Positions 1 to 61,402 of a stretch of DNA of 64,000 nt are shown here, piece by piece (the stretch's first letter is position 1; every line of letters begins with the position of its first letter). The position numbers and the translations under genes are program-made. Source of the stretch: Petrosia ficiformis (Eukaryota; Porifera; Demospongiae; Haplosclerida; Petrosiidae); assembly GCA_947044365.1 (NCBI GenBank), contig OX345636.1, positions 21,678,548-21,742,547 of the forward strand. Reading direction: 5' to 3'. A model generated the notes under the pieces. The model had not been told where the DNA came from. It saw only the letters and a program-made list of their open reading frames with translations, and made no database searches.

Positions 1-190
1 GGTCTTTTCGTGAACCCTGAAATAACTGGTGAATTATGTGGATTGTGTGGTAATGCAAGTGGAATCCTAGTATCATCTGATGGAATGATAGTTAATGATT
101 TGGCAGACCAGTACCAGATTGAGAAATTTGCTGATAGCTGGCAGAGGGAGCCACGTTACCAGATTCTACGAAATGATGGAAGGGACTGCA
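1..190 (+). CDS. Partial VWD-domain exon, 3' part of a gene running off the left edge
   Basis: The frame is open from base 1 and reads GLFVNPEITGELCGLCGN, then a D-rich stretch and F.DSW. This is the LCGN...D...F..SW ending typical of von Willebrand factor type D domains. The exon ends at a good donor (GTATGT at 191), leaving phase 1, the same intron phase as every intron of the Calx-beta gene at 24191-54320. VWD domains occur in large secreted matrix and mucin-like proteins, including sponge aggregation factors. No later exon of this gene was found before the repeats at 452, so the gene may end in an exon not recognised here. The in-frame GTG at 10 is not a start. The VWD call is firm; membership of the aggregation-factor family is inferred. 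Confidence 0.75.
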
Positions 191-451
191 GTATGTCATT
201 TTATGTATTAAACAAATTATCAGTGTTCTGCCCTCACTGGTCGGCACTGGTTGGGAATAACCACCTCTTATATAAATTAACCACCTCTCAGATAATACAT
301 ATATAGGCTACTGAGACTGGATAAATAGCACTAAATACAATGTAGAATCCAACTACCACTTAAATATCCTGGGCAGAACACTGGATTATATATTGATGCT
401 ATACTCTTTTGGTGGCCTTGTTTGCTACTTTTCATGTGGAATTGCTAATAA
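191..451 (+). other. Intronic or intergenic, nothing recognised
   Basis: Follows the splice donor at 191. AT-rich, with no further VWD-like frame and no clear polyadenylation context. Confidence 0.4.
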
Positions 452-926
452 TTATGGCCCGTAGGGCCATCCCTATGATTGCTTTCCCACGGGTTCGATG
501 TATGTTTATATAATATATATATGTTTGTGTCACCTACGCGAGTATGCGTTGTATACGTAGTTAAGGAAGTTACATCATTCCCGGGGGGCTCGGTCAATTA
601 ATGGGCGTGGCGCGTAAAAGAACGCGCGATCAAGCTCTACACATCAGCAGAAAGAAAGCTGTGTAGCTTACGTAGAAACTGGAACTAATAGCTAGCTATT
701 CTGCCTGAAATATATTCCTAAAGTTCTACAAGGTCCTTTGAAAGGTCAGGAGAGTAGATAATCAAAACAATAACTATAATAAGCTGTTGTCTTTCATGCT
801 TGATAAAGTCAGCCATGATTACTGAATGCTGGACACCACAAAGCAGTCATAGGGATACTTTTATCTTCACTTAAACTTGTAAAGCAATCATAGGGATGTT
901 TTTTTTCTCTATATACACTTGTTTAA
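452..926. repeat. M1-family MITE-like repeat, copy 1
   Basis: One of three copies of the same short element (others at 37521-37880 and 44890-46080). They share a left end with CCCTATGATTGCTTT, a central block with GTATACGTAGTTAAG, a block AAGTTCTACAAGGTCC, and a right end AAAGCAGTCATAGGGATAC. The two ends carry inverted ATCCCTATGA(T/C)TGCTTT, so this is a non-autonomous inverted-repeat element. There is no coding capacity. The outermost ends do not pair, so exact boundaries are uncertain. Confidence 0.6.
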
Positions 927-1489
927 TAATATGGTAACATACATGTAGCGAAATAACCCAATCTAAAAAGTATGTTAAGTCAAATACTTTGCATAACACT
1001 TATTATTATTCTTTTAGCTGTTTGTTCACTCGCATTCTCTTTTTATCATCCATCCATTGAGGCATGGCATGGCATGCATGTCTGTTTCAAATCTTTGCAA
1101 ATCAACTAAAGCAAATTACAAGAAGCCAATGGAAAGTTTCTTCGATCTTCCAGTAGTAAGCCTATATAATAGCCATTGAGCTATATAGGCATACTATTAC
1201 TGTAACTTAAATAATTATTATTGGTCATTATTGTCATACAAAAACAATACTACGTCATTTGCGTACCTCAAAAGATATTCATGTACAGACAAAGCTAGCT
1301 AGATTCCATGCCTAATTGAACAGCTATGATTACGTATACCCAATTAGTATATATAGCCTTGTCAATGCATCAGCAGTCTGTATATACACTGTATAGTACA
1401 GTTATGCACTCATCTAGCCTATATATCTATTGCATCTGCCCTCTATACCCATGCTCCTTGTAACCATCTAGGAGGTGCACGATCTGTGT

Positions 1490-3790
1490 ACACAGTGAAT
1501 TGGTGACCCCAGAGCTATGTTCTGTAGTGCTTGATTGGCCAGACTACTCCCGGGCCTTTAGTTGATAATTCACACCCAAACCCTCACCATTAGCACCAAT
1601 GTGGAGGACAAATTGCTTTGTAAAGCCTGGCGAGGATAAAACAGGCGGTGATGTAAGCAACTTCTTCATGTGTTCAAATGCAACACAACACTTGTCCATA
1701 GCATTAGACACAACAATAGATACAATGGACTTGCTATTTGTGAAAATCCAGGGACAAATCCATAGTAAACCGCAAGTCCCATAATCTCTCAAACAGTTTT
1801 CATAGCTGTCAGTAAAGGAAATAACTGTACAGTATCAAGTTTGTCAGTGTCTGGAACAACTCCTTTTTTTGACACGATCTGACCAAGATTACACACTTCT
1901 GAGCAACCCAGAGAATACTTATCTGGATGTATTTTATGACCATGTTTCGATCAACACAGAATCTCAGAGTGCATGTTGTATTACTTGATCGTCCAACATC
2001 TCCTTTACCATTCTGGAGATTTGATCACATGATGTGGCTGTTGAATTTGAAGATCATCAGATGTTCCAACAACATGTTCTACACATGTAATCTTTATGAC
2101 ATAGAAGTCAATCATCTAGTTCCAACTCTGATGATAGTCCTTTGTTCCTTTAACTAGTCCTCCCAACACAACACCACACTGTCCTGGAACACGTTCAGTA
2201 TGAACAAAGCATACAGGAGCATCACCAATAGAATCCTCCATTCGGAGTCTTGTTGAATCCTCCACGGATTTCTACTCCATCACACACAAGTAACAGCACC
2301 TAGGCATGATATCACATTGGGAAGGAAGGAATACCTGGAGTTCTATCTAAGTGCAGATATATCACAGTAACAGCACTCTCCCGTTGAACTCAATTTCAAC
2401 TTCAACCATAGTGGTTATAACCTCTCAGGAATACATCTTGTACAGGCAATGGTTCAGCTGTCATACCAACTTTCTTTCCTATGACCCTGAAGATGTCAAA
2501 TGACATGATCGTGACTGACGACCCAGAATCGACTAATGCCTCAACAGGTTGATCGCAAACTTTAACACTAGCATAGTAGAGTGATCCTACAGATCCTGTG
2601 ATTTGAAACGACTGCTTGTGTTCTCCTTCAGTCCACGCTGTATATTGATCAGATCACAATGACTTGCTTCATTCTCTTGGGTTACAAATGACGTCATAGT
2701 AGATTGGTGTTTTGTAGATACAGGAACAGGAGTCTCATTAGGTCAACGACACTGTGAACAGTCTCTCAACAAATGGCAATAACGTTTGTATTGATAACAT
2801 TTCAACCCTCAGGGAATGAAAATTGAATCTTTTGACATTTTAGCTTGTTCTTTTCCCACAACAGACGTATTTACTAGTAAAAGGTCTAGATGACTGATGA
2901 ATGAAGTGCTGACAGCAGCTTGTTTTGTTCTTTTGCAGCCCATGCTAAATGTAGATCATCGGCAATTCTCTTGGCAGAAGGCAAGACAATTTCCTGCCAC
3001 CTCAAATTCAAGCCTTGAGTGAAAAGATCATTCTTGCAATGCTTCACCTTATCTGGTAGGATTGCATGTATACTCTCTGCCTTACCAGTTAATAATAGTT
3101 CAAAAGTGTACCAGCTTCTCTTGTTCGATCAACTTCTGCATGTGTCTCCAATTTTCAGATGCAATGAACAAAGGCATCATCAATCTCTTCGTCTCCGGAG
3201 AACTTGTAATTGTGCCATCTAATTTCTCTAATACTGGCTTCTTCAACAAACTCAGTAGCTCTGGACATTATCACCGTCTACATAAACATCAGTTTTATTC
3301 CTCTTCAGCTTCTTCTTCAGTAAACATATCAAGTATCTAATTTCTTCTCATGTGCAGTTTACATCTCTCGGTATAATTCATCCTTAGCTTTCAAACATTC
3401 CATTTCATGTTACTTCCTCATTTTTGCAGCAAAATCAGTTATCTCCAACAACACATCCTGTGTGCTAAGTAGCTTGTCTTCCAACACCATGAAGGCAGAT
3501 TTACTATCTGAGATCTTCAATTTCAGAGTCTTGATCTCGATCCTCTTGAGCTTTAATTAACTCACTCTCCACATTTTCAAACCTTTTTTCTAAACTATTC
3601 TTATCTTCCTCATCTTCTTTAACTTTTGCTTTTAAATCATTTAAGCCTTCAGTTTTGTCTTGGTATACAGCATCCTTGATTTTCAGTTGTTCAACACATG
3701 GTCTCATAAATCCATTACAATCCTCTTCTATCCATCTCGATGGGACCTCCAAATGTAAACCTTTTTCTGTCGATGTCTGATTTAAAGTAT
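1490..3790 (-). pseudogene. Decayed Ty3/gypsy LTR retrotransposon (gag-protease-RT/RNase H pieces)
   Basis: On the minus strand, from its 5' side: a coiled-coil acidic gag-like stretch (3752-3504, rich in E/K/D with KEDEEDKNSLEKRFENVE); a zinc knuckle near 2815-2755 reading CYQYKRYCHLLRDC, in which the second Cys of the CX2CX4HX4C pattern is Tyr; an aspartic protease near 2600-2490 with the active-site motif VDSGSS; then 1792-1544, the end of the RT connecting into RNase H (LLTSPPVLSSPGFTKQFVLH, then GANGEGLG). Most of the reverse transcriptase is gone, frames are broken between the pieces, and no integrase was seen. No LTRs could be delimited. This is a relic inside the segmental duplication. 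Confidence 0.75.
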
Positions 3791-3799
3791 GTATATTAA

Positions 3800-4540
3800 A
3801 ATACTAACTCTCTCCTTCAATAAAAAGTTACAAGTACAATGGCTACAATCAACTCAAAAGAAAAACGTGGAGACCATGTGTTCTTGTAACCACATTTTAT
3901 CTTTAAAAATATAATTGAGAATCCATACTATGCATTACAATTCCGTGGACAATAATTATGCAGGTCATAGTGATTGCACAGCTCCACCTACACTCGCTTT
4001 AACACGTATTCCTGGGATAATTTTCAAAAAAACCTTTAAATGTTTACATTACACCTTTTATTTTTATCTGTACGCCATTATTATACTATAACATAATATT
4101 TTAAACTATACTTGACACATTTGTTTTCTATATAAAAAGAAGGACAAACTACCCACTGAACATGACATAAAAGATCGAAATGTTGTTTTGCAGTTTTATT
4201 TGTTTCTTCATAATAAAATCTTTTGGCAAAGTCAACCACAATACTATGTACAAAAAAGAAAGATGAATGTTCATTACGAATTATGAAAGTACATCAATAA
4301 TTATGCAGGGTAGAATATACATTGTGCTAAAGAACATTTAGTAATGCAGTAAACTAACAATATCAGGCTGTCATGCCTGTATATCATAACACACCTTACA
4401 TAGAAGAAAATAATAGAAGGGGCACAAAACAAAACAACTTTCTATTCTGAATTGAAAATGTACAGGCTTGTGAGATATCATTTATTGTAATAAAATTATA
4501 TATATTATGTATATTATATATATTATATATATTATATTAT
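3800..4540. other. Upstream flank of GPCR A, no exon recognised
   Basis: AT-rich DNA with a counterpart at about 55480-56080 in copy B. A signal-peptide exon for the GPCR was looked for here and not found with confidence. TA-rich tracts lie just before 4541. Confidence 0.4.
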
Positions 4541-7500
4541 ATGTCTCTTAAATTAGCACTTATAATTTGTCTTACTTTTCCTGTAGAACTTTCTCCTATT
4601 ATTACTCCAACTTATGGGAAGTTTACACTAGGGGTTACAAGAAACAACTCCATTGACATCTCAGTTAATATAACAGCTATACCTCCAATAAACCCATCTG
4701 CAATCCAGTGGTACTTTAACTCCATGCTGATTGAAGAACACAAGTCTAACAAATACATTTTTTGTTGTGGCAAACAATCATTGACTATCTTAGATGTACA
4801 ACACAGTGATGCTGGAATATATGAAATTACAGTAGGATCAAGTTCCATAAATATCACGTTGAATATCTATGGTATGTTCTTCAGTGTGTAATGCAATTGT
4901 ATGATTATATATATAATTATAATATTCCAATAACGTAGTTGAAGCTGCATTGCTGAATAAGAATGGCGTAATGACCACAAAGGAGACTGGAGAAAATATT
5001 ACCTTTAATTGTACTGCTGATGGAATTAACACACCCAAAATAATGTGGAGAAGAAATGGACAGCTTCTTTTCAATACTACAAGACTTAAAATAATCTTTT
5101 TCAGTAATAAAAAAGGATTTCGTTCCTTACCAGGAGCTCAACAGATCACTAGTTCACTAATTATCAGTGATTTGAAAGATAGTGACAGTGGTAACTACTC
5201 TTGTACTGCTGATAATGAAGCTAGGACACCAGTGTCATTGAGTTCCCCCTTTGTATTAACAGTATCATGTAATGCCACGAAGATGTTTTTTAATGTGAAT
5301 CTTACAAATTTTTGTTACTATAGCACTGCCTCCAATAAATTACTGTTCAAATTCACCATGCCTGAATGGAAGATGTCGGAGTTTAAGTGATAACTATTTG
5401 TGCACTTGTGATGAAGGTTATACAGGTCACAAATGTGAACTCAGTTGAGTGGATAAAAGCTAAAAGATTGTTTAATGTTTATAGTTTGTTCATTTCAACA
5501 GAAGTAATAGTCTATATACCACCCACAATTGAAATCCATCCAGTAGACACCATAGGTGAACTGTATCGGTCTGTCAGTCTCATATGTACAGCACGTGGCA
5601 ACCCAATACCTAATATCATATGGTACAAAGACAATATGCCTATACCAAACACTAACAGTAACACTTCTGTGTTAATATTCAATGAGCTGAACTTAAATGA
5701 TAGAGGATTTTACCATTGTGAAGCCAAAAGTATAATAAATGGAAAGAATGAATCAGATGCATCAGATATAATTGTTCTCAATATCAAAGGTTAGTTTGTC
5801 TATGATACTGTAGATATCAGTGGATTCTGTTTCATATTTGACAGGTATTGTTCAGTATGAAGCTATTATTGAATTACAATCACAATTTCAAAGTAAACAA
5901 ATCACTGACCTCATCCATCAGGTATGTATAAATAACACTTAGCAGATAGTTGTTCTATATCATCATTTTAAACAGATTAATGACTACCTCTCTGGTAGTG
6001 GTGATTTGACAAATGATGTGTCTTTTTTCCTTGTGACAGTACTGAATCAGGAAGATATTGAGTGGGTGCCACTATATAGGACAATTATCTCTTATTTATT
6101 ATTCTCTTTCACCAGTTAATATATATTATGATAATACCAATGTTTTGGCTATTTTAATCAATAGCCTTCATCAAGGTATAATGCAAAAAAATACAAACAA
6201 CAGACAGTTTAAATAGCTTAGTTCTGACAATGATAGACAGCATGATGGCTAGCTAGAGTGGTTGTGATGATAATTTCTGACATTGACACAATGGCTATGA
6301 TGGATGACATGACGACTAGCTAAGATGGCGTGGCGAGAGGAGCTCAGTGAGTGGGGTCACAGTTAACTGCTAGTATGGCTGGGGTAGGTTTCCACTATCT
6401 CTATTTGAAACCTGGTGGATATACCATGACTCATGGATGCATCGCTGGAACCATCGTTGATGTTGATGGAGAATAGTAGCATCTCCCCAGGCTATGTGAT
6501 GGTGAGAAGTCCAAGCATGCTTGGAGTTCTCACCATCATATAGCCTGTTTTTTTTTTTTTGCATTATACCCTGATGAAGGCTATTGATTAAAATAGCTGA
6601 AACGTTGGTATTATCATAATATATATTAACTGGCAAAAGAGAATAATAAATAAGAGATATGAATAATCCCAGCTATCAAGGTCTATATATAATTATATAT
6701 TATGTATTATGTATAGCCTGTAAATGTAGTTGATAATCTAACACGTACAGCCATTTAATTATTGTATTAATGGCATTCCTTCGAATGTATATATAATAAC
6801 TGAATACAGTGTTATCTATTACATTTAGTACTTATACTTACTGTCTACATCAAGGACCCTAATATGAGAATCATCATCCATTTTACTTATACTGTCTGAA
6901 TCTAACAATAGAATTAGAATCTGACACTTCTCGTGCACCTTTTTGCTCATTTCTCAACTGATTTCATCTACTTTTCTAGTTTAGAAAATTCGTTAGAAAT
7001 GATTCCAATTGTAATAACCTTAATAACTGAGGAAAAGGGAAGTGAAGAGTTATTAGAATTTGTCGAAGATAAAATGCAGAGACTTGAAACACAGTTGAAC
7101 TTTAATATCACAATTCAAGATGTTGATCGATTTGGTAAGAGAATATATAGGATAAAATGAAACAAGATCTCAAGCATTGTTTTATTCTCAGATGGCTGTC
7201 GTTCTAAAATTACTGAAATTCCTTCCTATCAATCTGGGAATACAAATTTAACAATATACATATCATGGCCAGAAAGTAACATTGGTGAACGTGCTAAAGT
7301 TCAGTGTCCTTGTGGTAATGTAACATTAGGGGGGAGGATTCTTTTAGCTACCAGATACTGTGGAGGTGATTTCACAAATGGAGGTCGATGGAGAAATCCT
7401 GATATAACACCTTGTAACTTCAGTGATGTATCTCGTGAAATATGTCAACTTGCGAAGGTATGTGTGTGCATTTAGATTTTTATAGAGGTGCTATTTACAA

Positions 7501-10397
7501 AATGTTAAACTTCTGTAGTTAGCAACAAATCAAAGGATAGAACAACTGCAAGATATCACTGACAATGGAAATGATTTGGGATCAACAGATGTTACTGTTT
7601 CAGTTGCTGTACTACTCACAACTACAGAGGAAGTATCTGGAAATCTATCTGTAAGTTATAAGTTATATGATGCAGCATATATATAATGTTTCAAAAATTA
7701 ATATTCACAGCTGACAAGTGATTTTTTGAATGTGGTAGATAATATAATAAATATAGATGAGGATACATTACAGGAGAGTCAAGAATCTTCCAATACCTCG
7801 GCCAAGTGAGAATTTTTCATGATAATTCACTAGCACTTGTTATCTTCTAATAGGATACTTGAAGCTATTGGATCTATAGTTGGAGATATTCCTGTTGGAA
7901 ATATTTCAGAACCTGTGGTTATTACCCGAAGAACATTTGCACTTTCAGTACAGCAAGTGGATCTTGATCAATTCATGGATATAGGTCAAAAGTTCAGTGC
8001 TAATCTTGGAGATTTTTCAAACATAAACATAAATGAGAGTATTGACTCTAGCGATTTGCAATTTGGAACCACCACACAGGCAACTGCTTCTGTTAAACTT
8101 CCTAGTAACTTATTCAGTGCAATTCCTAATGTCACTAGTAACACTAGAATCACACATGCAGTCTTCCTGTCTGATAGTTTATTCTTAAGGAGAAAGAGTA
8201 ATGACCTGGAGGTTGGAGGTATTATCATCTCAGCAGGTGTTGTAGGATATAACTCAATTCAAAGTCTAGATCCACCTGTCTCCATAAGCTTTCTCAAAAA
8301 CCCGGTATATATAACAATGATAGATTTAATTCTTGTTGTAAATCTGATATTTTCATATAGAGGATCAATGGTTCAGGACCTCTCTGCTCATTTTGGAACC
8401 CCATTTTAGATGGTAAAAAATATCTACAGAAGTAACATCAATTACTACTAGTGTATTATTTCATTATAGATGGATATGGAGACTGGTCACCTGATGGATG
8501 CAAAATTGATGAAAGTTATAATGATACTCAAGATTATGTTACATGTTTCTGCAATCATTTGACTAGTTTTTCTATACTCCTGGTTGGTCAAAGACACACA
8601 TCAACTGATTTCATTACAATGATTTGTATTTTCGCTTATAACATTACAGGATGTGTCTCCAACAATTGAACCAACAGAAGAAACACCATTGGCTCTTGCA
8701 CTGAATGCTGTGACATACATTGGAATAATCATATCAATTTTCTGTCTACTTATTACCATCATATCATATCTAAGTAGCAAGTATGTTAATTATTTATAAC
8801 TTTTTTTTTAATGTGATATTCATTCTTTACTATAGGAAACTACGTACCTCAGAAAATGGTCAACTACTCATTAATTTATGTTTAGCTTTAATTGGTCTAT
8901 ATATAACGTTCATATTTGCCATTCATAGCACACCAGTAATTGGTTTATGTGCATTTGTAGCTGCTACTCTGCAGTATTTTTTTCTTGTGAGCTTTATGAT
9001 TATGGCATCTGAGGCTATTAGCCTTTATATGAAACTAGTTGTTGTTCTTGGAAGAAATATACCTCATTTTGTTATGAAAGCTACTCTTATTAGTTGGGGT
9101 AAGTAATATTACATATAAGCATAGTTATTGTAATTTTGCATAAGGCAGTTATGTGTGTGAAAATCAATTCTTTATCGTCTTTTAGTGACACCGATATTTA
9201 TTGTCCTCTTCTGCTTTGCTCCAAATTATGAAAACTATGTCAGTGACCATTTGTAAGTTTTTAATCAATAAATATGAACTCAAAGTATGTCAAATATTTA
9301 ACCACTTTGAACAACTAGGGACAAATAGCTTTGGATTATTTATTCTTCCTTGTTTAGTTTTCTCTATTCACTCTTCTATCTCTTTTATAATTTAATAATT
9401 TTATTTCACATTATTTGTCTGATTCCAGGTTTAAGTCTATATATTCTTACTTGTACACTTCATTAGTATCGAAGTATACAGATTTAATTTTGTACTCGGA
9501 GGTCTGTATTTCATATATAAGAACAGGAAAAATTATGTAATTATTTCATTCATGTAAAAATAATAATTCTTATTATGTTATATATTTATGAATATAATAA
9601 TTAGGTACTCTCTCCCTTCCTTATGAAGAATAAAAATAATTTTATTTTAAATTCCATTCTGTAGTTGTCGTGCATTTAATATACCATACTATATTGGAAT
9701 GGTGGTTCCTTTCTTGATTATTTACATTTTCAACTGGATGGTATTTTGCATTATAATTGTCTCACTATTCCGTAAAACATGGACATCAAAGAATTTCAAG
9801 AAGAAACAAGAAAACATTTCCTTTGTTCGTCAACAGCTTGTGATTGTCACAGTTCTGTCCATCTTTTTCGGTTTAGGATGGGGCATTGGATTAATTGCTA
9901 CTCAGGATATTTACGATAATAAATTTGTTCGTGACATGTTTGCTGCCCTGTTTGTGATTATCACTGCTTTTCATGGATTATTTCTGTTCATTATGCACTG
10001 CCTTCGTTCAAAAGATGTTCGAAATGTTTGGAAACAATTGTTTTATGGGAAGTTTAGTGATCAATTTCAGATGTATTACTCACACGCCAGAAGCTCGGAA
10101 AATACAGATACTTTGAAAAAGAAAGTCAGTACATCCACTCTCCCTCTAGAGGAAGTGATAAAAGTTGACAAGAAAATGGCTAAAGAAGAAGAAGCAGGAA
10201 TGGAGGAATCTACTTTTAATCAAGCCACTATAGATTTGGATACTAGTGGTGAAGAACATGAGAAACAGGAAATGAAGAAGGAATTGTCGAATGCGGAAGT
10301 AAAGGTGGAAGAATCTTATCTTGCTATAACATTAGAATGTGCAGACGATGATGGAGAGAATGAAGTGGATGTGGATCCCACTGATCCAAAAAACTGA
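4541..10397 (+). CDS. Adhesion GPCR with Ig, EGF, HormR and GAIN/GPS domains (copy A)
   Basis: A 17-exon gene encoding about 1229 aa. Exons: 4541-4871, 4939-5268, 5324-5443, 5502-5789, 5845-5921, 5976-6061, 6980-7134, 7192-7457, 7519-7650, 7711-7805, 7854-8304, 8361-8412, 8470-8582, 8650-8780, 8836-9098, 9186-9252, 9665-10397. All boundaries are GT/AG and the phases close to the stop. Domains: Ig-like 1 and 2 (W.RRNG, DSGNYSC), an EGF module in exon 3 (NYCSNSPCLNGRC, CTCDEGYTGHKC), Ig 3 (IWYKDN, DRGFYHC), HormR (exon 8, Cys-rich with CPCGN and YCGG.F.NGGRW), GAIN, and GPS (CFCNHLTSFSILLV, predicted cleavage between L and T). Seven membrane segments begin in exon 14 (LALNAVTYIGIIISIFCLL), followed by an acidic cytoplasmic tail. 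The family senses matrix or cell contacts and signals through G proteins. Start: ATG 4541 gives a signal-peptide-like MSLKLALIICLTFPV, but CTTACTTTTCCTGTAG just before 4587 looks like an acceptor, so the true first exon may lie upstream. Confidence 0.88.
5324..5443 (+). CDS. EGF-like exon of GPCR A
   Basis: A 120-bp phase 1-1 exon. It is easily missed because the longest open frame here is a different, meaningless one. In the spliced frame it has six Cys in EGF spacing (C.NSPCLNGRC...YLCTCDEGYTGHKC). The AG before 5324 and the GTTGAG donor at 5444 keep it in phase with both flanking Ig exons, so it is a self-contained domain cassette. Confidence 0.85.
6086..6660. mobile_element. Foldback element with about 105-bp terminal inverted repeats
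   Basis: The left arm (about 6088-6190) and right arm (about 6545-6655) are near-perfect reverse complements, both containing a block like TATATATTATGATAATACCA and the pair GGCTATTGATTAAAATAGC. The central part has no coding sequence, though it includes a short inverted pair (GGTGAGAA... / ...TTCTCACC). It sits in intron 6 of GPCR A and stretches that intron to 918 bp. The copy B intron keeps only a scrap (AGCTGAAACATTGGTATTA near 57720). Confidence 0.8.
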
Positions 10398-11283
10398 TCA
10401 GTGAATGCTGATATTTACAAACCAGTGTCTTTGTTCTTTATTCGTATTTCATTGTAGCACTTTTTTTGTACTTGAAGTAATTTAATGTTTACGTAGCTAG
10501 TTTATTAACTTTGTTTCGCATTATAATTATAATTTAGAGTTCACTAAGTGCAAAAATATAAACATTACATAACACAGTGTCTTGTCAAACAGTTAGCAAA
10601 TACTGATTTGGGATACTCAGCAGTGATCACTTTGAAAGGTTGCAAGCTTTTTTCACACATTAATATACTCATTAATTAAGTTAATTAATAATAGGAACTT
10701 GTGCTATTCCGGCTTCCTTGTTAGCTACAATTGGTAAATCACTTGTAGAGAAAAAAAACAGATTAGCTATACAAACTCATCTATAATATATAATTAATCA
10801 TTATTAAGAGTTGGAAGAAAGCCTGCCATATAATACTAGAAAAATGTTTCTCTTCATGATCAGTATATATCAAGCAAAAATACTAATAGAAATAAAAGTT
10901 GTATATATGGATAAAAATTACAAATCAAGTGACTACAAAGGGTCCATATATTACTCCACTGAACCAAATTAATATAATAATTGTACAATAGCAACTCATG
11001 AATAAATAAACACCTATTGTAGCCAGGTGAACGGGACCCTTGTGGAAAGGACGGTCATGACCAGAGCGTATTCTGAATTGAATGAACAAGTTGAGTGGGC
11101 CGCTGCAACTACAGTTGGCACTACAGCCTGCCGGGCTGAGGCTAGTCACATGTACTGTGCTGAATTGAAAGCCGGGATGAGAGAATTGACCATGTAAATA
11201 ACTGAAATAATCATTAACTTAATTTACCACTTATTCATGCCAATCTTAATCGGAGCAGATCGGCAGAATCTTTTAACCCACCA
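10398..11283. other. 3' flank of GPCR A
   Basis: Contains the likely 3' UTR (to about 10600, conserved at 61403-61600) and the right boundary of the segmental duplication near 10915. Unique AT-rich DNA follows. No gene was recognised. Confidence 0.5.
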
Positions 11284-11370
11284 ATTATTAAACGGAGCAG
11301 AATATGGGAATTGAAAGAGATGTGGGGCCACCATCTCTTTCAATTCCCGTATTCTGCTCCGTTTAATAAT
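11284..11370. repeat. Near-perfect 87-bp hairpin
   Basis: The arm starting ATTATTAAACGGAGCAGAAT and its reverse complement ending GTTTAATAAT pair over about 39 bp with one mismatch and a loop of about 8-10 nt around TGGGGCC. It is GC-richer than its surroundings. It is probably a short foldback element; a small-RNA precursor cannot be excluded. Confidence 0.8.
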
Positions 11371-11413
11371 ATGTACATAATTATGTGAAACAAGGCGTGG
11401 TCTTTCTAAATGA

Positions 11414-12127
11414 ACTTGTGGGCGAGAACGTATTTTCTCTGACATACCTATCCAAGAACCCTCTAAACTACACGTAATAGTAGGGAGAAATCACACGAAA
11501 TCTACCTATACATCAACTAGGACACACTATATTGAACAAGAGTTCTTTCGTTGTGAAAGCTGTTTTAAAGGTAAACAGAATTGTGGTGTATATGCAACCT
11601 GTGCTAGAACTTGCCATGACAATCACAGGGTTTACTCAATAGGAACAAGTAGTTGCTTTTGCGATTGTGGGCTTCAAAATTATGCAATATGCTGTAAAGT
11701 TGGTGAGAAATGTTCCTACGATGCCTTTGAGAAAGTATCTACTGTCCAAAATTGGTACGAGTGCCATACATGTTGGGGAGGTGAACCATCTTTGGGCTGT
11801 TGTGAAGACTGTGCAAACGACTGCCATTCTGGACACAAACTAGTACCTCATATGATCATGCACCATCATTGTTTCTTTGTGATTGTGGCCATAAGCATAA
11901 TCCTAATGTCTGCACATATATATCATTCCACTGGCAGCAATTTCCATAAGCAGCCTTTCTACTTCAGCCACAAATGTTTCACAAACCCTATCGCTGAAGG
12001 TTGTTGTTACCAGTGTACAAAGCACTGTCATGATGGACATAGAATCAGTTTCAAGGGCATAATTTCAGCTTATTGTGACTGTGGATTAACTATTTGTTTT
12101 GTAAATTGTAAAATACCTTGTAAATGA
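11414..12127 (+). pseudogene. Triple UBR-box-like zinc-finger open frame, no start codon, one frameshift
   Basis: The frame is open for 237 codons from just after a stop at 11411. It reads three similar Cys/His modules: repeat 1 (11549-11680: RCESCFKG, CARTCHDNHR, CFCDCG), repeat 2 (about 11758-11900: YECHTCWGG, CEDCANDCHSGHK), repeat 3 (about 11970-12090: HKCF, CYQCTKHCHDGHR, YCDCG). The C..C, CH..H and CDCG pattern is that of UBR boxes, which recognise N-degrons in E3 ligases. In repeat 2 the CDCG lies one base out of frame (TGTGATTGTGGC at 11878), so one base has probably been lost, although the main frame stays open through the next repeat. There is no in-frame ATG before 11849. It could be an internal or last exon of a spliced gene, or a recently broken copy. 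Confidence 0.65.
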
Positions 12128-15100: not shown

Positions 15101-16002
15101 TAAACTCATCAAACAGCTTGAAATTAGTCATATAAGAGTGTGTGTACCGTACAATGGCTAATGCAGTTTACAGTATACGTAATTCCTGTGCTATCAGTTT
15201 AGAAAAGTCCATTATTAAATTTTCAATGAATTAATTATTCATACAAAATGATCATAATATGTACAAGAGTTTTTTTAGCTAGTTTTCAGATAGTCTTCTG
15301 TTGTGTCAATGATAATTTGCAGTATTTGCATAATTATGTTCTTGATGTTTTATTGCCATCATTCGCTTTGTGATGAAGAATGAAGACTAAGATTATGCAC
15401 ATCTGCAGGATATGCCCACTTAAATGATTGTATAAATATGGTTCACTTTCATTTACTGTTCATGTTTAGACAGTGAATGTATAATGTACTATATACATGT
15501 ATCTCCTAGCATTTGTAAAAAAATCATGAATGCCCGACAACATGTGCTCTCCTTATAGCACAAAGTCTTTGATCATAATTATCATAGTCTTGCATAGCCA
15601 TTTTGCAGGCATGTGATAGTTTTGTCCAAAAATGGAAAATTCCATAATATATATCTTTTGTACAAACAATATTCTTGGTAGGTACATAACTAAACAATTA
15701 TTTGCTATATATGTTTTGTGATTTGTATGATCATTAATATTTTAAAAACTGATATTTTAGCTCTAGGCAGTGCCTCAGCCCTTCATCATTTCAAAATTGA
15801 TGTTTAGAACATGTCAGCACTTTAGTAAAAAGCAATTTGTTGTTTGTTTTATATACATAGCATATTAAATTATGACTTGATGAAATGTGAACATCAACAA
15901 TTTAACAATAAAAAGATATTACAACCAAACCAATAATAATTATTCTTAAACATCACAATTATTGTTTTCTAATAATTATTTTATCATCAGTTTCAGTATT
16001 GC

Positions 16003-16039
<37 letters not shown>

Positions 16040-16805
16040 AGTTTGTTCATGTTGAGCTACATTTCATCAAGTTATATAATAAATTCTCATATCATATAAG
16101 CATTGAATTGTTTCATGTATGCACTATGTATGCAGAAATGATATATACCAGAGAAGAGAAACAATGAACACTAAATGATGGCTCTTAGCTTTCGCCTTTC
16201 AACCATGACAGTCACATTCTAACTCCATGTACTTCATGTTATTACAAGTTTCTGGCAAGTGATTCAAATGTAGTTACACATGCACACAGCTAAGATAAAG
16301 AGGAAATCTATTATTTTTGTCAATAATTGTGAGTGTATGTTTTCTATATACTTTCTGCGATGGTTTTCAGTGAAATTTTCACATAATAGCACAAGTAATA
16401 ATTATTATAGTATATTATAATGATGTCATTGATGACCATCCATTTTCTTTTTCTTGTGCGGGGCAATTCCATTGTGAATTTAATGTGTGGGCCAAATTTA
16501 ATGTGTGGACCAACTCTAGAAGAATCACAGCAGTAGGCATCAGTATAGCAATGAGGCTACACTGAGGAGCTGAAAAAATAAATCAGGATAGGCTAAGCTG
16601 TTGTCATGGTGGTTTTATACCTCTGGTGATATGGTAGCTACCCCCACGTACCAAATCATCAGCTGCAGTGCATCTAAATTTCTGAAACAGTGTTAGTTTA
16701 ATATTGCAGTCATTTTACTAAATGTCTATATTGTTTATTGATCATATCTGAGTTTTTGGACTGATCTCTAGGATACAAAGTAAGCTGATATTAATTGCAT
16801 ACCTT
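12128..16805. other. Long gene-poor stretch with scattered repeats
   Basis: No exon-like frame with recognisable protein similarity was found. It holds a repeat piece at about 14540-14760 (CTCTCAGATTGCACCAGAAT, then GGAGGCATGCCCCCTGACCC), a block at about 14985-15290 repeated at 39640-39940 (shared ATCAAACAGCTTGAAATTAG), and a TA run at about 16003-16035. The rest is AT-rich DNA in which I see nothing. Confidence 0.5.
14540..14760 (+). repeat. Interspersed repeat fragment with GC-rich palindromic core
   Basis: Carries CTCTCAGATTGCACCAGAAT followed by a core GGCATGCCCCCTGACCCC. From memory this combination resembles a dispersed element common in marine invertebrate genomes. The frame on either strand is not protein-like. 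Confidence 0.4.
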
Positions 16806-17192: not shown

Positions 17193-17208
17193 TCTTTTTT
17201 TTTAAGGG

Positions 17209-19725: not shown

Positions 19726-19977
19726 TCACTACTTATTACTTTATAACTGAAAGATTTTAGTATGATTATACTAGTCTCTTCCTTGTCTATACTATAAGTC
19801 TTACATTTTAGTCTCTGTATTATCTGAAAGAAGAAAGAAAGATCCTCAATTCCACAAAGACAGCATACTGTCGTTTCCGGTAATCTTGCAACGGCGCTCT
19901 CAAACCGGAGATGACGTAACCTAATTTTTTTTGCTTAGTCAGCAAACAATTTCTAGCGGGAATTTTGAATTTTAATA

Positions 19978-20967
19978 ATGGATTCTTACGAACCGACTCG
20001 AACCATTGCTTACAGCAATGATTTGAGATGGAGGATGGTGTATCAAAGGAAAGTACTGAAGTATAACTATGCAGAGATCTCCAGAAATCTCGGTGTAGAC
20101 AAATCTACAGTTCAAAGGACTGTTGTTCTGTTTGATACAACTGGTGCTGTTGATAAAAAAGTCTACCCCAAGGAAAATTCATTCAGAAAGCTGACACTTC
20201 CAGCTCAATTACTCATTCTAAACCTTATTATCGAAAGACCTTCTGCTTATTTAAGTGAGATTCAACAGGAAATTGAAAATACACTTCAGATTGAAGTAAG
20301 TATTTCAACTATATGTAGATTTTTAAAAGAAAATGGTTTCTCCAGACAAAAACTACAGCGAGTTGCACTACAACAAGATTTACTCTTAAGAGACCAGTTC
20401 ATGTCAGACGCATCTGTCTTTTCACAAGAAATGTTTGTGTTTGTGGATGAAACAGGAGCAGACCAAAGAAATTGCCTTCGAAAATATGGGTACAGTCTAC
20501 GTGGAAAGACTCCTGTATCTCATGAGTTCGTAATTAGAGGAGAAAGGGTTTCTGCAATTGCATGTATGTCGTCATCTGGAATACTGGATATTAAAACAGT
20601 TAAAGGAACATCTGATGGAGATATATTTTATGACTTTACACAGACACATCTTCTACCATACTTAATGCCATATAATGGTATTAATATGCATTCCGTAGTT
20701 GTTTTAGATAATTGTTCAATTCACCATGTCTATGAAGTTAGAAAGGCAATTGAAGATGTTGGTGCTCTAGTTCTGTTTCTACCACCATACTCACCAGACC
20801 TTAATCCAATTGAGGAAGTATTTTCAAAAGTAAAGTACAGTCTTAAAACAATATCTATAGAACTACCACACATTACAGACCTGAATACTCTTCTATTAGC
20901 AAGCTTTACAACAGTAACAATGGAAGATTGTGTTGGATACATTAATCACTGCAAAATTTATTATTAA
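19978..20967 (+). CDS. Tc1/mariner-IS630-type DDE transposase, intact
   Basis: An uninterrupted 329-aa frame with a standard ATG. The N-terminal helix-turn-helix (about residues 12-60: YNYAEISRNLGVDKSTVQRT) binds the element ends. A second paired-like HTH follows, then the DDE catalytic core: first Asp in FVDETGAD (about residue 158), second in VVVLDNCSIHH (about 243), and Glu in PPYSPDLNPIEE, 34 residues after the second Asp. This enzyme cuts and pastes its own DNA. The length is typical, there is no stop or frameshift, and all three acids are present, so it could be active. It ends 80 bp from the stop of the convergent SHOCT gene at 21047-22055. Terminal inverted repeats were sought at 19430-19480 and 22560-22615 and could not be settled by eye. 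Confidence 0.92.
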   Translation: MDSYEPTRTIAYSNDLRWRMVYQRKVLKYNYAEISRNLGVDKSTVQRTVVLFDTTGAVDKKVYPKENSFRKLTLPAQLLILNLIIERPSAYLSEIQQEIENTLQIEVSISTICRFLKENGFSRQKLQRVALQQDLLLRDQFMSDASVFSQEMFVFVDETGADQRNCLRKYGYSLRGKTPVSHEFVIRGERVSAIACMSSSGILDIKTVKGTSDGDIFYDFTQTHLLPYLMPYNGINMHSVVVLDNCSIHHVYEVRKAIEDVGALVLFLPPYSPDLNPIEEVFSKVKYSLKTISIELPHITDLNTLLLASFTTVTMEDCVGYINHCKIYY

Positions 20968-21046
20968 TCAAATTGATTGTGTAATAACCAAACTTTAAAT
21001 ATTTGTCAATTATAAGCAAACATGAAAGGATATATATACCTCTTGT

Positions 21047-24190: not shown

Positions 24191-54320
<30,130 letters not shown>

Positions 54321-54368
54321 GTAAGATATAATTATATGAACATAATAATAATATTCATAATTATATAG

Positions 54369-54910
54369 TTGTATGGCATATACATGAATGGCATGCACAC
54401 ACCTACACATACATGTATATTATACAGACACACACACATTCAATAATATCCATGCTTCTATTAATAATTATTAACAATGGCGTCCTCTTGTAAAGATATA
54501 ATTTCTGGAGTCGCTGAAACTCTCTTTTACATACTTCCTGAAGAGATGATCTCAATAATTGTACATCAGAATTTTACTATGAATGTGATTGGAATGGTGC
54601 TAGAATCATTGTGATAGTTTGACAAACAAAAAAATGATTTGTCTGGGATATAATAATAATAATAATATTATATGATCAAAGATTTTGCCAGTTTTGCAAC
54701 CTGCCAATTTTCTACCTTAAAGAGGATCTCTGGCTGTCTAGAAGATGTTGTTAGCCATAAAACACTAGATATCAAAAAGTATGTGTGTATTAAGAGTTGT
54801 TTCTATAATTTTAGCAGAAATTTCAGCTCATCACTTCCAATTGAAATGTATAGGCGGCCATTTCTTTCGATGCCATCCCTACATAGAGAGTACTACCGTA
54901 CTCTCTGATA
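54369..54910. other. Spacer between the matrix gene and duplication copy B
   Basis: The CA-repeat intron start copied from the Calx-beta 7 to 8 intron breaks off at about 54440. The rest is unique AT-rich DNA ending in AGAGAGTACTACCGTACTCTCT, an inverted repeat at the duplication edge. No gene recognised. Confidence 0.5.
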
Positions 54911-55189
54911 ATCGGTCAATATTGTTCATACAAAAACAATACTAGATCATTTGCGTTCACTTTGACCTCAAAAGATATTCATGTACAGACAAAGCTACGT
55001 AGCTAGATTCCATGCCTAATTGAACAGCTATGATTACGTATACCTAATTAGTATATATAGCCTCGTCAATGCATCAGCAGTTTTTAATACACCATATAGT
55101 ACAGTTATGCACTCACCTAGCCTATATATCTTTTGCATCTGCCCTCTATACCCATACTCGTTGTAACCATCTAGGAAGTGCACGATCTG

Positions 55190-55480
55190 TGTACACAGTG
55201 AATTGGTGATCCCAGAGCTATGTTCTGTAGTGCTTGATTGGCCAGACTACTCCCGGGCCTCTAGTTGATAATTCGCACCCAAACCCTCACCATTAGCACC
55301 AATGTGGAGGACAAATTGCTTTGTAAAGCCTGGGGAAGGTGGTGATGTAAGAAACGTCTTCATGTAAGCAACTTCTTCATGTGTTCAAATGCAACACAAC
55401 ACTTGTCCATCCACTGGAACTTAGCATTAGACACAACAATAGATACATTAGACTTGCTATTTGTGAAAAACTGTAGACAA
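55190..55480 (-). pseudogene. Ty3/gypsy RT-RNase H fragment, copy B
   Basis: Matches 1490-1790 on the minus strand, with an internal rearrangement (CTTCATGTAAGCAACTTCTTCATG duplicated) and a broken frame. After it the sequence jumps to the equivalent of about 3870, skipping about 2.1 kb. Confidence 0.65.
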
Positions 55481-55972
55481 TGTCTCCTTGTAACCACATC
55501 TCATCTTTATAAACATAATTTAGAATGCAACTATGCCTTACAATTCCATGGACAATATGCAAATCATGGTAATTGAACAGCTCCACTTACACTTGCTTTA
55601 ACGCCACTCCTGGGATAACTGTCAAAAAAACCTTTGAATTTTTACATTACACCTTTTATTCTTATCTGTACACCTTTGAACCTTTCACTTTTATAGTACA
55701 CCTTTTATTTTTATTTGTACACCCACAATACTGTGTACAAAAAAGAAAGATGAAATGTTCATTACGAATTATGAAAGTACATCAAAATAGACATTGTGCG
55801 ACGAAACATTTAGTAATACAGTATACTAACAACATCAGGCTATCATGCCTGTATATCATAATACACCTTACATAGACCTTATTCAGGAAAATAATAGAAG
55901 GGGCACAAAACAGAACAACTTTCTATTCTGAATTGATAATGTACAGGCTTGTGAGACATAATTTATTGTAAT

Positions 55973-55975
<3 letters not shown>

Positions 55976-56034
<59 letters not shown>

Positions 56035-56060
56035 CATATATATATACATATATATATAAT
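55976..56060 (+). repeat. (TA)n tract upstream of GPCR B
   Basis: About 35-40 TA units. The matching place in copy A is a shorter TATTATATATATTA tract. Confidence 0.95.
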
Positions 56061-56098
56061 GTATGCCTCTTAAATTACCACTTATAATTTGTCTGTAG

Positions 56099-59000
56099 AA
56101 CTTTCTCCTACAATTACTCCAACTTATGGGAAGTTTACACTAGGGGTTACAAGAAACAACTCCATTGACATCTCAGTTAATATAACAGCTATACCTCCAA
56201 TAAACCCATCTGCAATCCAGTGGTACTTTAACTCCATGCTGATCGAAGAACGCAATAAATCCAACAACCACAGATTTTGTTGTGGCAAACAATCATTGAC
56301 TATCTTAAATGCACAACACAGTGATGCTGGAATATATGAAATTACAGTAGGATCAAGTTCCATAAATATTATGTTGAATGTCTATGGTATGTTCTTCAAT
56401 GTGTAATGCAATTATATGATTATATATAATTATAATTATATAGTTGAAGCTGCATTGATGAATAAGAATGGCATAGTGACCACAAAAGAGACTGGAGAAA
56501 TTGTCACCTTTAATTGTACTGCTGATGGTATTAACACACCCAAAATAACATGGAGAAGAAATGGACAGCTTCTTTTCAATACTACAAGATTTAAAATAAT
56601 CTCTTTCAATAAAATAGAAGGATTTCGTCCCACACTAGAAACTCAACAGATCACTAGTTCACTAATTATCAGTGATTTGAAAGATACTGACAGTGATAAC
56701 TACTCTTGTATTGCTGATAATGAAGCTAGGACTCCAGTGTCGTTGAGTTCCCCCTTTGTATTAACAGTATCATGTAATGCCATGAAGATATTTATTCATA
56801 ATGATGTTACAAATTTTTGTTACTATAGCACTGCCTCCAACCAATTACTGTTCAAATTCACCATGCCTGAATGGAAGATGTCATAGTTTAAGTGATAACT
56901 ATTTGTGCACTTGTGATGAAGGTTATACAGGTCACAAATGTGAACTCAGTTGAGTGGATAAAAACTAGAAGATTGTTTAATGTTTATAGTTTGTTCATTT
57001 CAACAGAAGTATTAGTCTATATACCACCCACAATTGAAATCCATCCAGTAGACACCATAGGTGAACTGTATCAGTCTATCAGTCTCACATGTACAGCAAG
57101 TGGCAACCCAATGCCTAATATCATATGGTACAAAGACAATATTTCTATACCAAACACTAACAGTAACACTTCTGTGTTAATATTCAATGAGCTGAACTTA
57201 AATGATAGAGGATTTTACCATTGTGAAGCCAAAAGTATTATAAATGGAAAGAATGAATCAGATGCGTCGGATATAATTGTTCTCAATATCAAAGGTTAGT
57301 CTGTCAATCAGAATGTAGATATCATCAAATCGTGTTTCATATTTGACAGGTATTGTTCAGTATGAAGCTATTATTCAATTACATTCACAATTTCAAATCA
57401 CTGACCTCATCCATCAGGTATATAAAAATAACACTTAACAAATAGTTATATTGTTCCATATTGCCATTGTAAACAGATTAATGAGCACCTCTCAGGTACT
57501 AGTGATCCAACCAATGATGTGACTTTTTTCCTGGTGAATCAGGAAAAAAATAAGTGGGTGTCACTAATTAATTATATATTATGTATTTTTCAGGTTCTAG
57601 CGGAAGAGAGGTGCTGCACTGATCTATGTAATGCCATTTACTTTTGACGTTGTAAATAAATGTGATTGAATCGATATGCTTTGATTTTTATGTCAGCACA
57701 ACTGTGTTGAAGAGTGGCTAGCTGAAACATTGGTATTATGTATGGCCTGTTAATGGTAGTTGATATACATATATTTACCCACATTTTAATATTACATTGA
57801 GGACATACCTTGAATGTATGTATAAAAAATAACTAAATGCCATGTTATCTATTACATTTAGTACTACTATTCTTATTGTCTATATTAGACCCTAACACGA
57901 GGATTATCATCTTTTGTTATTTGACTCTTCTCATACACTTTTGTTGCTCTCTCATACTGACTTCATCTACTTTTTTAGCTTAGAAAATTCATTAGAAATG
58001 ATTCCAATTGCAATAACCTTAATAACTGAGGAAAGGGGAAGTGAAGAGTTATTAGAATTTGTTGAAGATGAAATGCAAAGGCTTGAAACTCAGTTGAACT
58101 ATAATATCAGTATTGATGATGTTGATCGATTTGGTAGGAAAATGTATGAAATGAATTGAAATAACTTTTAGACAATTTGTTTTTCTTATTCTCAGATGGC
58201 TGTCGTTCTAAAATTACGGAAATTCCTTCCTATCAATCTGTGAATGCAAATTTAACAATATACATTTCATGGCCAGAAAGTAACATTGGTGAACGTGCTG
58301 AAGTTCAGTGTCCTTGTGGTAATGTAACATTAGGGGGGAGGATTCTTTTAGCTACCAGATACTGTGGAGGTGATTTCACAAATGGAGGTCGATGGACAAA
58401 TCTTGATATAACACCTTGTAACTTCAGTGATGTATCTCGTGAAATATGTCAACTGGCGAAGGTATGTGTGTGCATTTAGATTTTTATAGAGGTGCTATTT
58501 ACAAAATGTTAAACTTCTGTAGTTAGCAACAAATCAAAGGATAGAACAACTGCAAGATATCACTGACAATGGAAATGATTTGGGATCAACAGATATTACT
58601 GTTTCAGTTGCTGTACTGCTTACAACTACAGAGGAAGTATCTGGAAATCTATCTGTAAGTTATAAGTTATATGATGCATCATATATATAATGTTTCAAAA
58701 ATTAATATTCACAGCTGACAAGTGATTTTTTGAATGTGGTGGATAATATAATAAATATAGATGAGGATACATTACAGGAGAGTCAAGAATCTTCCAATAC
58801 CTCAGCCAAGTGAGGATTTTTCATGATAATTCACTAGCACTTATTATCTTCTAATAGGATACTTGAAGCTATTGGATCTATAGTTGGAGATATTCCTGTT
58901 GGAAATAATTCAGAACCTGTGGTTATTACCCGAAGAACATTTGCACTTTCAGTACAGCAAGTGGATCTTGATCAATTCATGGATATAGGTCAAAAGTTCA

Positions 59001-61402
59001 GTGCTAATCTTGGGGATTTTTCAAACATAAACATAAATGAGAGTATTGACTTTAACGATTTGCAATTTGGAACCACCACACCGGCAACTGCTTCTGTTGA
59101 ACTTCCTAGTAACGTATTCCGTGCAATTCCTAATGTCACTAGTAACACTAAAATCACACATGCAGTCTTCCTTTCTGATAGTTTATTCTTAAGGAGAAAT
59201 AGTAATGACCTGGAGGTTGGAAGTATTATCATCTCAGCACGTGTTGTAGGATATAGCTCAATACAAAGTCTAGATCCACCTGTCTCCATAAGCTTCCTCA
59301 AAAACCCGGTATATATAACAATGATAGATTTAATCCTTGTTGTAAATCTGATATTTTCATATAGATGATCAATGGTTCAGAACCTCTCTGCTCTTTTTGG
59401 AACCCCATTTTAGACGGTAAAACATATCTGCAAAGTAACATCAATTACTACTAGTGTATTATTTCATTATAGATAGATATGGAGACTGGTCATCTGATGG
59501 ATGCAAAATTGATGAAAGTTATAATGATACTCAAGATTATGTTACATGTTTCTGCAATCATTTGACTAGTTTTTCTATACTGCTGGTTGGTCAAAGACAC
59601 ACATCAACTGATTTGATTATAATGATTTGTCTTTTTGCTTAAAACATTACAGGATGTGTCTCCAACAATTGAACCAACAGAAGAAACCCCATTGGCTCTT
59701 GCACTGAATGCTGTGACATACATTGGAATAATCATATCAATTTTCTGTCTACTTATTACCATCATATCATATCTAAGTAGCAAGTATGTTAATTATTTAT
59801 AACTTTTTTTCAATGTGATATTCATTCTTTACTATAGGAAACTACGTACCTCAGAAAATGGTCAACTACTCATTAATTTATGTTTAGCTTTAATTGGTCT
59901 ATATATAACTTTCATACTTGCCATTCACAGCACACCAGTAATTGGTTTATGTGCATTTGTAGCTGCTACTCTGCAATATTTTTTTCTTGTGAGCTTTATG
60001 ATTATGGCATCTGAGGCTATTAGCCTTTATATGAAACTAGTTGTTGTTCTAGGAAGAAATATACCTCATTTTGTTATGAAAGCTACTCTTATTTCTTGGG
60101 GTAAGTAATATTGCATATAAGCATAGTTATTGTAATTTTGCAGAAGGCAGTTATGTGTGTGAAAAACAATTCTTTATTGTCTCTTAGTGACACCAATATT
60201 TATTGTCCTCTTCTGCTTTGCTCCAAATTATGAAAACTACGTCAGTGACCATTTGTAAGTAGTCAATAAATATGAACTCAAAGTATGTCAAATATTTAAC
60301 AGCTTTGAACAACCAGGGACAAATAACTTTGGATTACTTTTGCTTTATTCTTCCTGTGTTTAGTTTTTTCTATTCTTTGTTTTTACTCTTCTATCTCCTT
60401 TTATAATTTATTTCACATTAAGTGTCTCATTCCAAATTTAAGTCTATATATTGTTAATTGTACACTTCATTAGTATCGAAGTATAGTGATTAAATTTTGT
60501 ACTCAGAGGCCTGTATTTCATATATAAGAACAGGAAAAAGTATGTAATTATTTCATTCATGTAAAATTCTTATTATGTTATATATTTATAATTAGATATC
60601 TACAATTATATCTACTCTTTCCCTTTATGATGAATAATTCTATTTTTCAATTCCATTCTGTAGTTGTCGTGCTTTTAATATACCATACTATATTGGAATG
60701 GTGGTTCCTTTCTTGATTATTTACATTTTCAACTGGATTGTATTTTTCATTATAATTGTCTCACTATTTCGTAAAACTTGGACATCAAAGAATTTCAAGA
60801 AAAAACAAGAAAACATTTCCTTTGTTCGTCAACAGCTTGTCATTGTCACAGTTCTGTCCATCTTTTTCGGTTTCGAATGGGGCATTGGATTAATTGCTAC
60901 TCAGGATATTTACGATAATAAATTTGTTCGTGACATGTTTGCTGCTCTGTTTGTGATTATCACTGCTTTTCATGGATTATTTCTGTTCATTATGCACTGC
61001 CTTCGTTCAAAAGATGTTCGAAATGTTTGGAAACAATTGTTTTATGGGAAGTTTAGGGATCAATTTCAGATGTATTACTCACACGCCAGAAGCTCAGAAA
61101 ATACAGATACTTTAAAAAAGAAAGTCAGTACATCCACTCTCCCTCTAGAGGAAGTGATAAAAATTGACAAGAAAATGGCGAAGGAAGAAGAAGCAGGAAT
61201 GGAGGAATCTACTTTTAATCAAGCCACTATAGATTTGGTTACTAGTAGTGAAGAACATGAGAAACAGGAAATGAAAAAGGAATTGTCGAATGCAGAAGTA
61301 AAGATGGAAGAATCTTCTTTTGCTATAACATTAGAATGTGTAGATAATGATGGAGAGAATGAAGTGGATGTGGATCCCAGTGATCCAAAAACTGATCAGT
61401 AA
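56099..61402 (+). CDS. Adhesion GPCR with Ig, EGF, HormR and GAIN/GPS domains (copy B)
   Basis: Paralogue of 4541-10397. Exons: 56099-56386, 56444-56773, 56829-56948, 57007-57294, 57350-57417, 57477-57553, 57979-58133, 58196-58461, 58523-58654, 58715-58809, 58858-59308, 59365-59416, 59473-59585, 59653-59783, 59838-60100, 60188-60254, 60664-61402. About 1210 codons, closing in phase to TAA. Same domain order, GPS CFCNHLTSFSILLV kept, membrane segments nearly identical. Length differences are whole codons (exon 5 is 9 nt shorter, exon 6 is 9 nt shorter, the first Ig has one extra codon). Differences cluster in the Ig domains, around the GPS, and in the tail; TM6 has FGFEWGIG where A has FGLGWGIG. 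The ATG equivalent to 4541 is followed by an in-frame TAG because of a 10-nt deletion, so the start must come from an upstream exon not found, or the gene is N-terminally broken. Confidence 0.85.

Follow-up and report, generated by a model that had tools for sequence, protein, structure and literature searches.

Matrix-type and adhesion GPCR exons of a Petrosia ficiformis cluster probably form single genes for very large receptors

The stretch of DNA analysed here, the window, comprises 64,000 nucleotides of the sponge Petrosia ficiformis (C1:21678548-21742547; genome of 191 Mb in 29 contigs). On its plus strand lie the 3' part of one adhesion G-protein-coupled receptor (aGPCR) unit, copy A, which runs to position 10,397, and another such unit, copy B, at about 24,191-61,402. 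A first-pass annotation of the window had placed a secreted matrix-type gene before each receptor and proposed that ligand and receptor are encoded side by side. Our analysis points to a different layout: the "matrix gene" and the Ig-type aGPCR of a unit very likely constitute one gene, encoding a very large single-chain adhesion GPCR. Judged from exon order, this receptor probably consists of a signal peptide, an IgGFc_binding domain, a Calx-beta array with VWA (and VWD in copy A), Ig-Ig-EGF-Ig, HRM/GAIN/GPS and a seven-transmembrane (7TM) region.

When read together with the DNA upstream of the window, copy A gave 46 exons with AG/GT borders throughout and a chain of 3,623 amino acids, which runs from a signal-peptide-like exon to the stop codon with no internal stop and carries a Calx-beta array with one VWA, then VWD, then Ig-Ig-EGF-Ig. 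Final gene models were built from homology, AG/GT borders and phase; a home-made gene finder, which fused neighbouring genes, was used as a source of candidate exons only. Since the copy A model starts about 28.7 kb upstream, base 1 of the window is not a real gene boundary. The annotation had set a "VWD-ending" gene before copy A against an "IgGFc/Calx-beta/VWA" gene before copy B; the domains are real, but the contrast arose mainly from the window cutting copy A, whose upstream part also carries IgGFc, Calx-beta and VWA. The features of copy A are as follows.

1.5-28.7 kb upstream of the window: signal peptide, IgGFc, Calx-beta and VWA exons of the copy A model
1-190, plus strand: 3' part of the VWD exon, whose 5' end lies about 0.4 kb outside the window; phase 1-1, preceded by the last Calx-beta exon and followed by Ig1
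4587-4871, 4939-5268, 5324-5443 and 5502-5789, plus strand: Ig1, Ig2, EGF and Ig3, all phase 1-1
5845-7134, plus strand: linker exons L1-L3
7192-7457, plus strand: HRM; 7519-8304, plus strand: GAIN exons
8361-8582, plus strand: GPS exons, ...CFCNHLTSFSILL
8650-10397, plus strand: 7TM exons and cytoplasmic tail to the stop

The Ig1-to-7TM part comprises 17 exons in copy A (4587-10397) and 17 in copy B (56099-61402), with AG/GT borders and no stop. In copy A, Pfam matched three Ig_3 stretches, EGF (22.8 bits, cut-off 21.5), GPS (53.8 bits) and 7tm_2 (87.7 bits); the GPS lies directly before 7tm_2, both above their cut-offs, which is the arrangement of an adhesion GPCR. For the HRM the score was 23.9 bits within the chain, short of the cut-off of 26.2, and 26.3 bits as a single open reading frame (ORF). 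The VWD, its exon joined across the window edge, scored 24.7 bits (cut-off 22.9), while the part inside the window alone gave no Pfam match. Exon structure, Pfam and homology thus bear out the two same-orientation aGPCRs with Ig/EGF ectodomains, and the Calx-beta, VWA and VWD content was likewise recovered by Pfam. As for the matrix-type gene 5' of each receptor, its IgGFc, Calx-beta, VWA and VWD exons are real; separate secreted genes were not confirmed.

To place the window in its setting, units were surveyed over 274 kb (C1:21468548-21742547), with exons placed by homology. In six units of this stretch (U1, U2, U2b, U3, A and B) Calx-beta exons come after an IgGFc exon, and four of them (U1, U3, A and B) continue into Ig and 7TM exons. 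U2 and U2b end in a single helix, recognized by eye, and a short tail; 17-31 kb beyond them there are 7TM fragments only. The minus strand at C1:33.97-34.00 Mb holds a seventh unit (the C1:34 copy). The ectodomain modules (IgGFc, Calx-beta, VWA, VWD, Ig and EGF) are symmetric phase 1-1 exons, so that a module could be gained, lost or skipped without breaking the frame, and their number and order vary between the units of the C1:21 cluster. Intact phase 1-1 exon matches numbered 28/28 in U1, 27/28 in A, 28/30 in B, 8/8 in the C1:34 copy, 6/7 in U2, 12/14 in U2b and 17/23 in U3, where exons e2 and VWA were each entered as two broken matches. The window belongs to a birth-and-death cluster, some units of which have decayed. 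Tandem duplication of both supposed partners, also claimed at the outset, did take place, as one unit and with module shuffling across the six units of the 274 kb.

Open chains were found at other loci as well. U1 gave 46 exons and 3,523 amino acids and the C1:34 copy 25 exons and 2,196 amino acids, both with no stop; no signal peptide was found in the 1.3 kb examined at the latter. At the C5 locus, 21 exons encode 1,620 amino acids with no stop, comprising signal peptide, IgGFc, EGFs, Ig-Ig-EGF-Ig, HRM and GPS up to an exon for transmembrane helices (TM) 2-4; one donor in this chain is GC not GT, and a short TM4-like exon and the TM5-7 exon were not chained. At the C14 locus, about 9 kb hold an IgGFc exon and, after it, exons for Ig, HRM and GAIN, which were left unchained. 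The order of IgGFc and then Ig-aGPCR recurs at C1:34 Mb, C5 and C14. In the whole genome, a same-strand IgGFc match lay 5' within 45 kb of 13 of the 43 Ig-aGPCR matches (shuffle mean 0.6, maximum 8; none of 2,000 shuffles reached 13), a count in which tandem copies are not independent, the separate loci being the C1:21 cluster, C1:34, C5 and C14. Over the same distance, IgGFc lay 3' on the same strand in 12/43 and on the other strand in 1/43. Within 20 kb, five Ig-aGPCR matches had IgGFc 5' (shuffle mean 0.30; 9 of 2,000 reached five).

Single predicted proteins combining IgGFc, Calx-beta, GPS and 7tm_2 occur in two other sponges. The Amphimedon queenslandica protein P0095 (UniRef "Calx-beta domain-containing protein", 2,790 amino acids) resembles copy A in carrying IgGFc_binding, a Calx-beta array, HRM (below cut-off), GPS and 7tm_2, and is colinear with it: residues 16-592 of copy A correspond to 28-616 (33% identity) and 2738-3554 to 1732-2552 (40%). 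Unlike copy A, it has no Pfam match to Ig, EGF or VWA, shows two IgGFc stretches, and bears a C-terminal kinase domain that was not found in the tail of copy A. The Halichondria panicea protein LOC135335851 (P0096, 2,347 amino acids) has a signal-peptide-like start (by eye), IgGFc, Calx-beta, HRM, GPS and 7tm_2; it differs from copy A by Sushi in place of Ig/EGF and the lack of a VWA match. From HRM to 7TM the identity is 31%, and its 7tm_2 match stops at position 134 of 250; against the present genome the protein gave 21 matches of 25-34% identity (20 of 397 candidates scored). The proteome search that the first-pass annotation had proposed thus did find IgGFc/Calx-beta/7TM proteins in two other sponges, predicted as single chains.

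Among the candidates scored, the closest named proteins were from Amphimedon; each of three protein searches scored 7,985-7,992 candidates sharing most words, so that absence there is weak evidence. P0001 and P0002 of Amphimedon share Ig, GPS and 7tm_2 by Pfam (HRM matched in P0002 only, EGF in P0001 only) and show 51% and 48% identity to copy A in alignments of about 1,100 amino acids. Unlike the units described here, they show no Calx-beta, VWA or IgGFc Pfam match, and P0001 has 11 Ig_3 stretches; its start resembles the tail of IgGFc over 20 amino acids, a weak match (E 5e-4 in a two-sequence search). P0092/P0093 of Amphimedon follow the IgGFc-Calx-helix plan of U2 (L008) and U2b (L012-L014), the helix being recognized by eye. 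An Amphimedon GPCR survey reported sponge aGPCRs with Ig, EGF and HRM (PMC4302439); its main text does not contain "calx-beta", and IgGFc was not looked for there. In a Halichondria transcriptome, the domains in the receptor figure include IgGFc-binding, Calx-beta, VWA and GAIN, the text section leaving unstated which protein bears them (PMC8242945); this was the only paper in the open-licence literature searched to bring IgGFc, Calx-beta and GPCR together. The accessible part of PMC12465263 contains nothing on an IgGFc/Calx-beta GPCR type.

Copy B lies wholly within the window, with the following features.

24191-24266, plus strand: putative signal-peptide exon with a phase-1 donor, from a hydrophobicity scan only and absent from the other units
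24639-26036, plus strand: IgGFc_binding exon, phase 1-1
28163-41394, plus strand: Calx-beta array (N1 ... g2), mostly two half-exons per domain
41784-42341, plus strand: VWA 1
42699-43765, plus strand: Calx-beta exons h1, h2 and i1, the last an orphan half without partner
47756-48266, plus strand: second cassette, Calx-beta g1-g2
48682-49239, plus strand: VWA 2, its ORF 84% identical to the VWA 1 ORF
49608-54320, plus strand: remaining Calx-beta exons, the last at 54130-54320
56099-57294, plus strand: Ig1, Ig2, EGF and Ig3
57350-59308, plus strand: linkers L1-L3, HRM (58196-58461) and GAIN exons (58523-59308)
59365-59585, plus strand: GPS exons
59653-61402, plus strand: 7TM and cytoplasmic tail to the stop

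The IgGFc_binding, Calx-beta and VWA exons 5' of its GPCR part are real by Pfam, with 9 + 2 Calx-beta stretches in the parts scanned; the Ig-to-GPS exons were located by homology, and the last exon matches 7tm_2. Two exons stand in the way of a full chain. Joining i1 to 47756 leads to a stop, and the last Calx-beta exon has a 4-nt deletion that is missing from the four other copies aligned. As a gene-finder candidate, this exon had a phase unfit for Ig1; in the last variant of the skipping test, the usual donor was set about two bases short. Without i1 and without the last Calx-beta exon, the chain is open over 45 exons and 3,537 amino acids, and without i1 but with an alternative donor in the last Calx-beta exon it is open over 3,588 amino acids.

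Several observations weigh against one gene per unit. Because the borders of our chains were picked by homology and phase, a procedure that makes open chains more likely, openness alone is no proof. A same-strand IgGFc 5' within 45 kb is missing from 30 of the 43 Ig-aGPCR matches, and within 20 kb same-strand IgGFc lies 3' (9) more often than 5' (5; other strand 0), an excess that tandem packing could explain. Copy B is open only with i1 skipped and with its last Calx-beta exon skipped or given an alternative donor, and U3 has decayed. In A and U1, the frame of Ig1 continues upstream past its acceptor and leads into MSLKL(A/P)LIICLTFPV, which could be a signal peptide. A search for signal-peptide exons in phase 1 speaks for one gene, though as a weak control: before IgGFc it found a likely exon common to four of six units, and at five Calx-Ig junctions a single shared candidate, that of U3 and B, whose DNA matches at 94% identity in that stretch. 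Its weakness lies in the DNA likeness of those four units and in the further shared hydrophobic stretches that it yielded. If each unit held two genes, one for a secreted matrix protein (IgGFc/Calx-beta/VWA/VWD) and a downstream one for an Ig-type aGPCR, perhaps its receptor, then the unpaired matches, the stretch leading into Ig1, the about 1.7-4.4 kb between the last Calx-beta or VWD exon and Ig1 in the C1 units and the existence of GPCR-less IgGFc/Calx-beta proteins (P0092/P0093) would all fit. However, B, the C1:34 copy and C5 lack the putative signal peptide, that of U3 is interrupted, and the last matrix exon and Ig1 share phase 1. The Ig1 AG acceptor stands at the identical place in all six loci aligned, and Ig1 is in phase 1 in all five loci checked (U1, A, B, C1:34 and C5), the Ig1 of U3 being frame-broken. 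With the open chain at C5 and the fused proteins predicted in two sponges, we consider two genes per unit very improbable. The stretch leading into Ig1 also makes a short Ig-only receptor, starting at Ig1 in A and U1, possible. That both forms exist, a giant receptor and a shorter one from an internal promoter before Ig1, along with module-skipping isoforms, seems to us unlikely: an ATG and a hydrophobic stretch do lie in frame before Ig1 in these two units, and the symmetric module exons would let skipping preserve phase, yet the stretch coincides in part with the acceptor's polypyrimidine tract, and the other four loci compared either lack it or have it broken. The supposed partners are most likely two halves of one polypeptide, and a secreted ligand beside its receptor, given the open chains of copy A and C5 and the fused sponge proteins, fails as stated.

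A separate matter is whether copy B is a decaying pseudogene, with the A-type units alone at work. Private codon changes (synonymous:nonsynonymous) were 27:17 in A, 9:30 in B and 8:21 in U1, and the ratio in B, set against that in A, suggests that B may be decaying. The deletion in its last Calx-beta exon, the orphan half-exon i1 and a truncated f2 point the same way. On the other side, 28 of its 30 upstream exon matches and all 17 GPCR exons are open with AG/GT borders, and omission of the two damaged exons restores the chain. We lean somewhat against a pseudogene while taking it as a serious possibility; copy B would be either decaying or dependent on splicing round its damaged exons. The GPCR parts of A and B consist of DNA blocks 88-97% alike, with a synonymous divergence (dS) of 0.083; the ratio of nonsynonymous to synonymous divergence (dN/dS) is 0.22 for the 7TM, 0.44 overall and 1.12 for Ig2. 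With few changes behind the last value, positive selection on Ig2 is not claimed.

Other elements lie in and around the two copies. Between them, on the plus strand, are an ORF with two zf-UBR (UBR box) stretches (11414-12127), similar ORFs recurring in the upstream 274 kb, and a transposase-like 332-amino-acid ORF with a DDE_3 endonuclease and a helix-turn-helix (19969-20967). DEAD-helicase fragments occupy the minus strand of copy B introns (27457-27807 and 45306-45632), and a reverse-transcriptase RNase H-like fragment, below the Pfam cut-off, lies between the VWD and Ig1 exons of copy A (1544-1834, minus strand). IgGFc and VWD matches were found a few kb apart on the same strand at C16:2.35-2.37 Mb, C6:1.56 Mb and C2:8.28 Mb, a possible source of the copy A VWD, which was itself not among the 38 matches of the genome-wide VWD search. 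An AlphaFold model of the IgGFc domain (7-row alignment; pLDDT 64, pTM 0.66) was of middling quality, and its TM-scores to PDB structures were about 0.05-0.22 among the matches listed (either normalisation); it was left unused.

How such a receptor would work can be proposed from established adhesion-GPCR biology, as regards GPS cleavage, outer-fragment binding and the tethered agonist. CNHLTSF is present at the GPS of A and B, with HL/T as what we take to be the self-cleavage site. The receptor chain would be cut at the GPS, and the huge outer fragment would remain attached or be shed; through its modules it may bind matrix or a neighbouring cell. Force on the outer fragment, or its loss, would expose the tethered agonist and lead to G-protein signalling. 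The cluster could then be a set of adhesion/recognition sensors whose outer parts diversify by cassette shuffling, and a recognition role, which fits this shuffling, is plausible. A stronger proposal is that the units are modular self-recognition receptors: aggregation-factor-like modules and GPCR in one chain, which cleavage at the GPS would split into a matrix-like fragment serving as ligand and the signalling half that belongs to it, with individuals differing by shuffled symmetric Calx-beta/VWA cassettes and the single-helix U2 and U2b as non-signalling partners. We regard this as speculative and rather improbable. In an Amphimedon graft transcriptome, the portion available reports that aggregation-factor adhesion genes were not enriched (PMC5450542); sponge GPCR and Calx-beta genes are described as responding to microbes, in accounts that, as far as available, do not concern this receptor type (PMC6208332, PMC11229196).

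If the one-gene reading is true, the sponge possesses clustered, very large receptors in which modules of the matrix/aggregation type sit directly on a GPCR, the tandem arrays gaining and losing such modules, and sponge cell adhesion and recognition gain a concrete signalling receptor. The question of ligand-receptor binding would give way to a simpler one, of a transcript across the junction and a cut at the GPS. There is also a caution here: giant genes of symmetric exons are readily mis-split into false neighbours.

Among known systems, VLGR1/ADGRV1 is a giant adhesion GPCR that combines numerous Calx-beta domains with GAIN/GPS and 7TM; the ADGRV type carries EPTP/EAR and LamG modules and no HRM. 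The Calx-beta array in the copy B ectodomain resembles it, but unlike ADGRV1 the units here carry IgGFc, VWA, Ig, EGF and HRM. Membership of ADGRV was considered and not assigned; EPTP and LamG had no Pfam match in the parts scanned, and HRM is present. The closest solved-structure chains were ADGRG6 (best), G2 and L3. In the portion available of PMC12716839, ADGRV is the only metazoan aGPCR subfamily given a choanoflagellate orthologue.

A run of VWD matches on both strands at C1:38.5-40.4 Mb is a candidate place for true aggregation-factor genes. Sponge aggregation factors reportedly contain Calx-beta and VWD domain types, which the units described here have in common with them. Those factors are secreted, with Calx-beta and VWD in a proteoglycan core, whereas the present units terminate in either a GPCR or a single helix, and the copy A model runs on into Ig and 7TM; the link to aggregation factors would be one of shared domain types only. 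The reading favoured here is a giant modular receptor family in a birth-and-death cluster.

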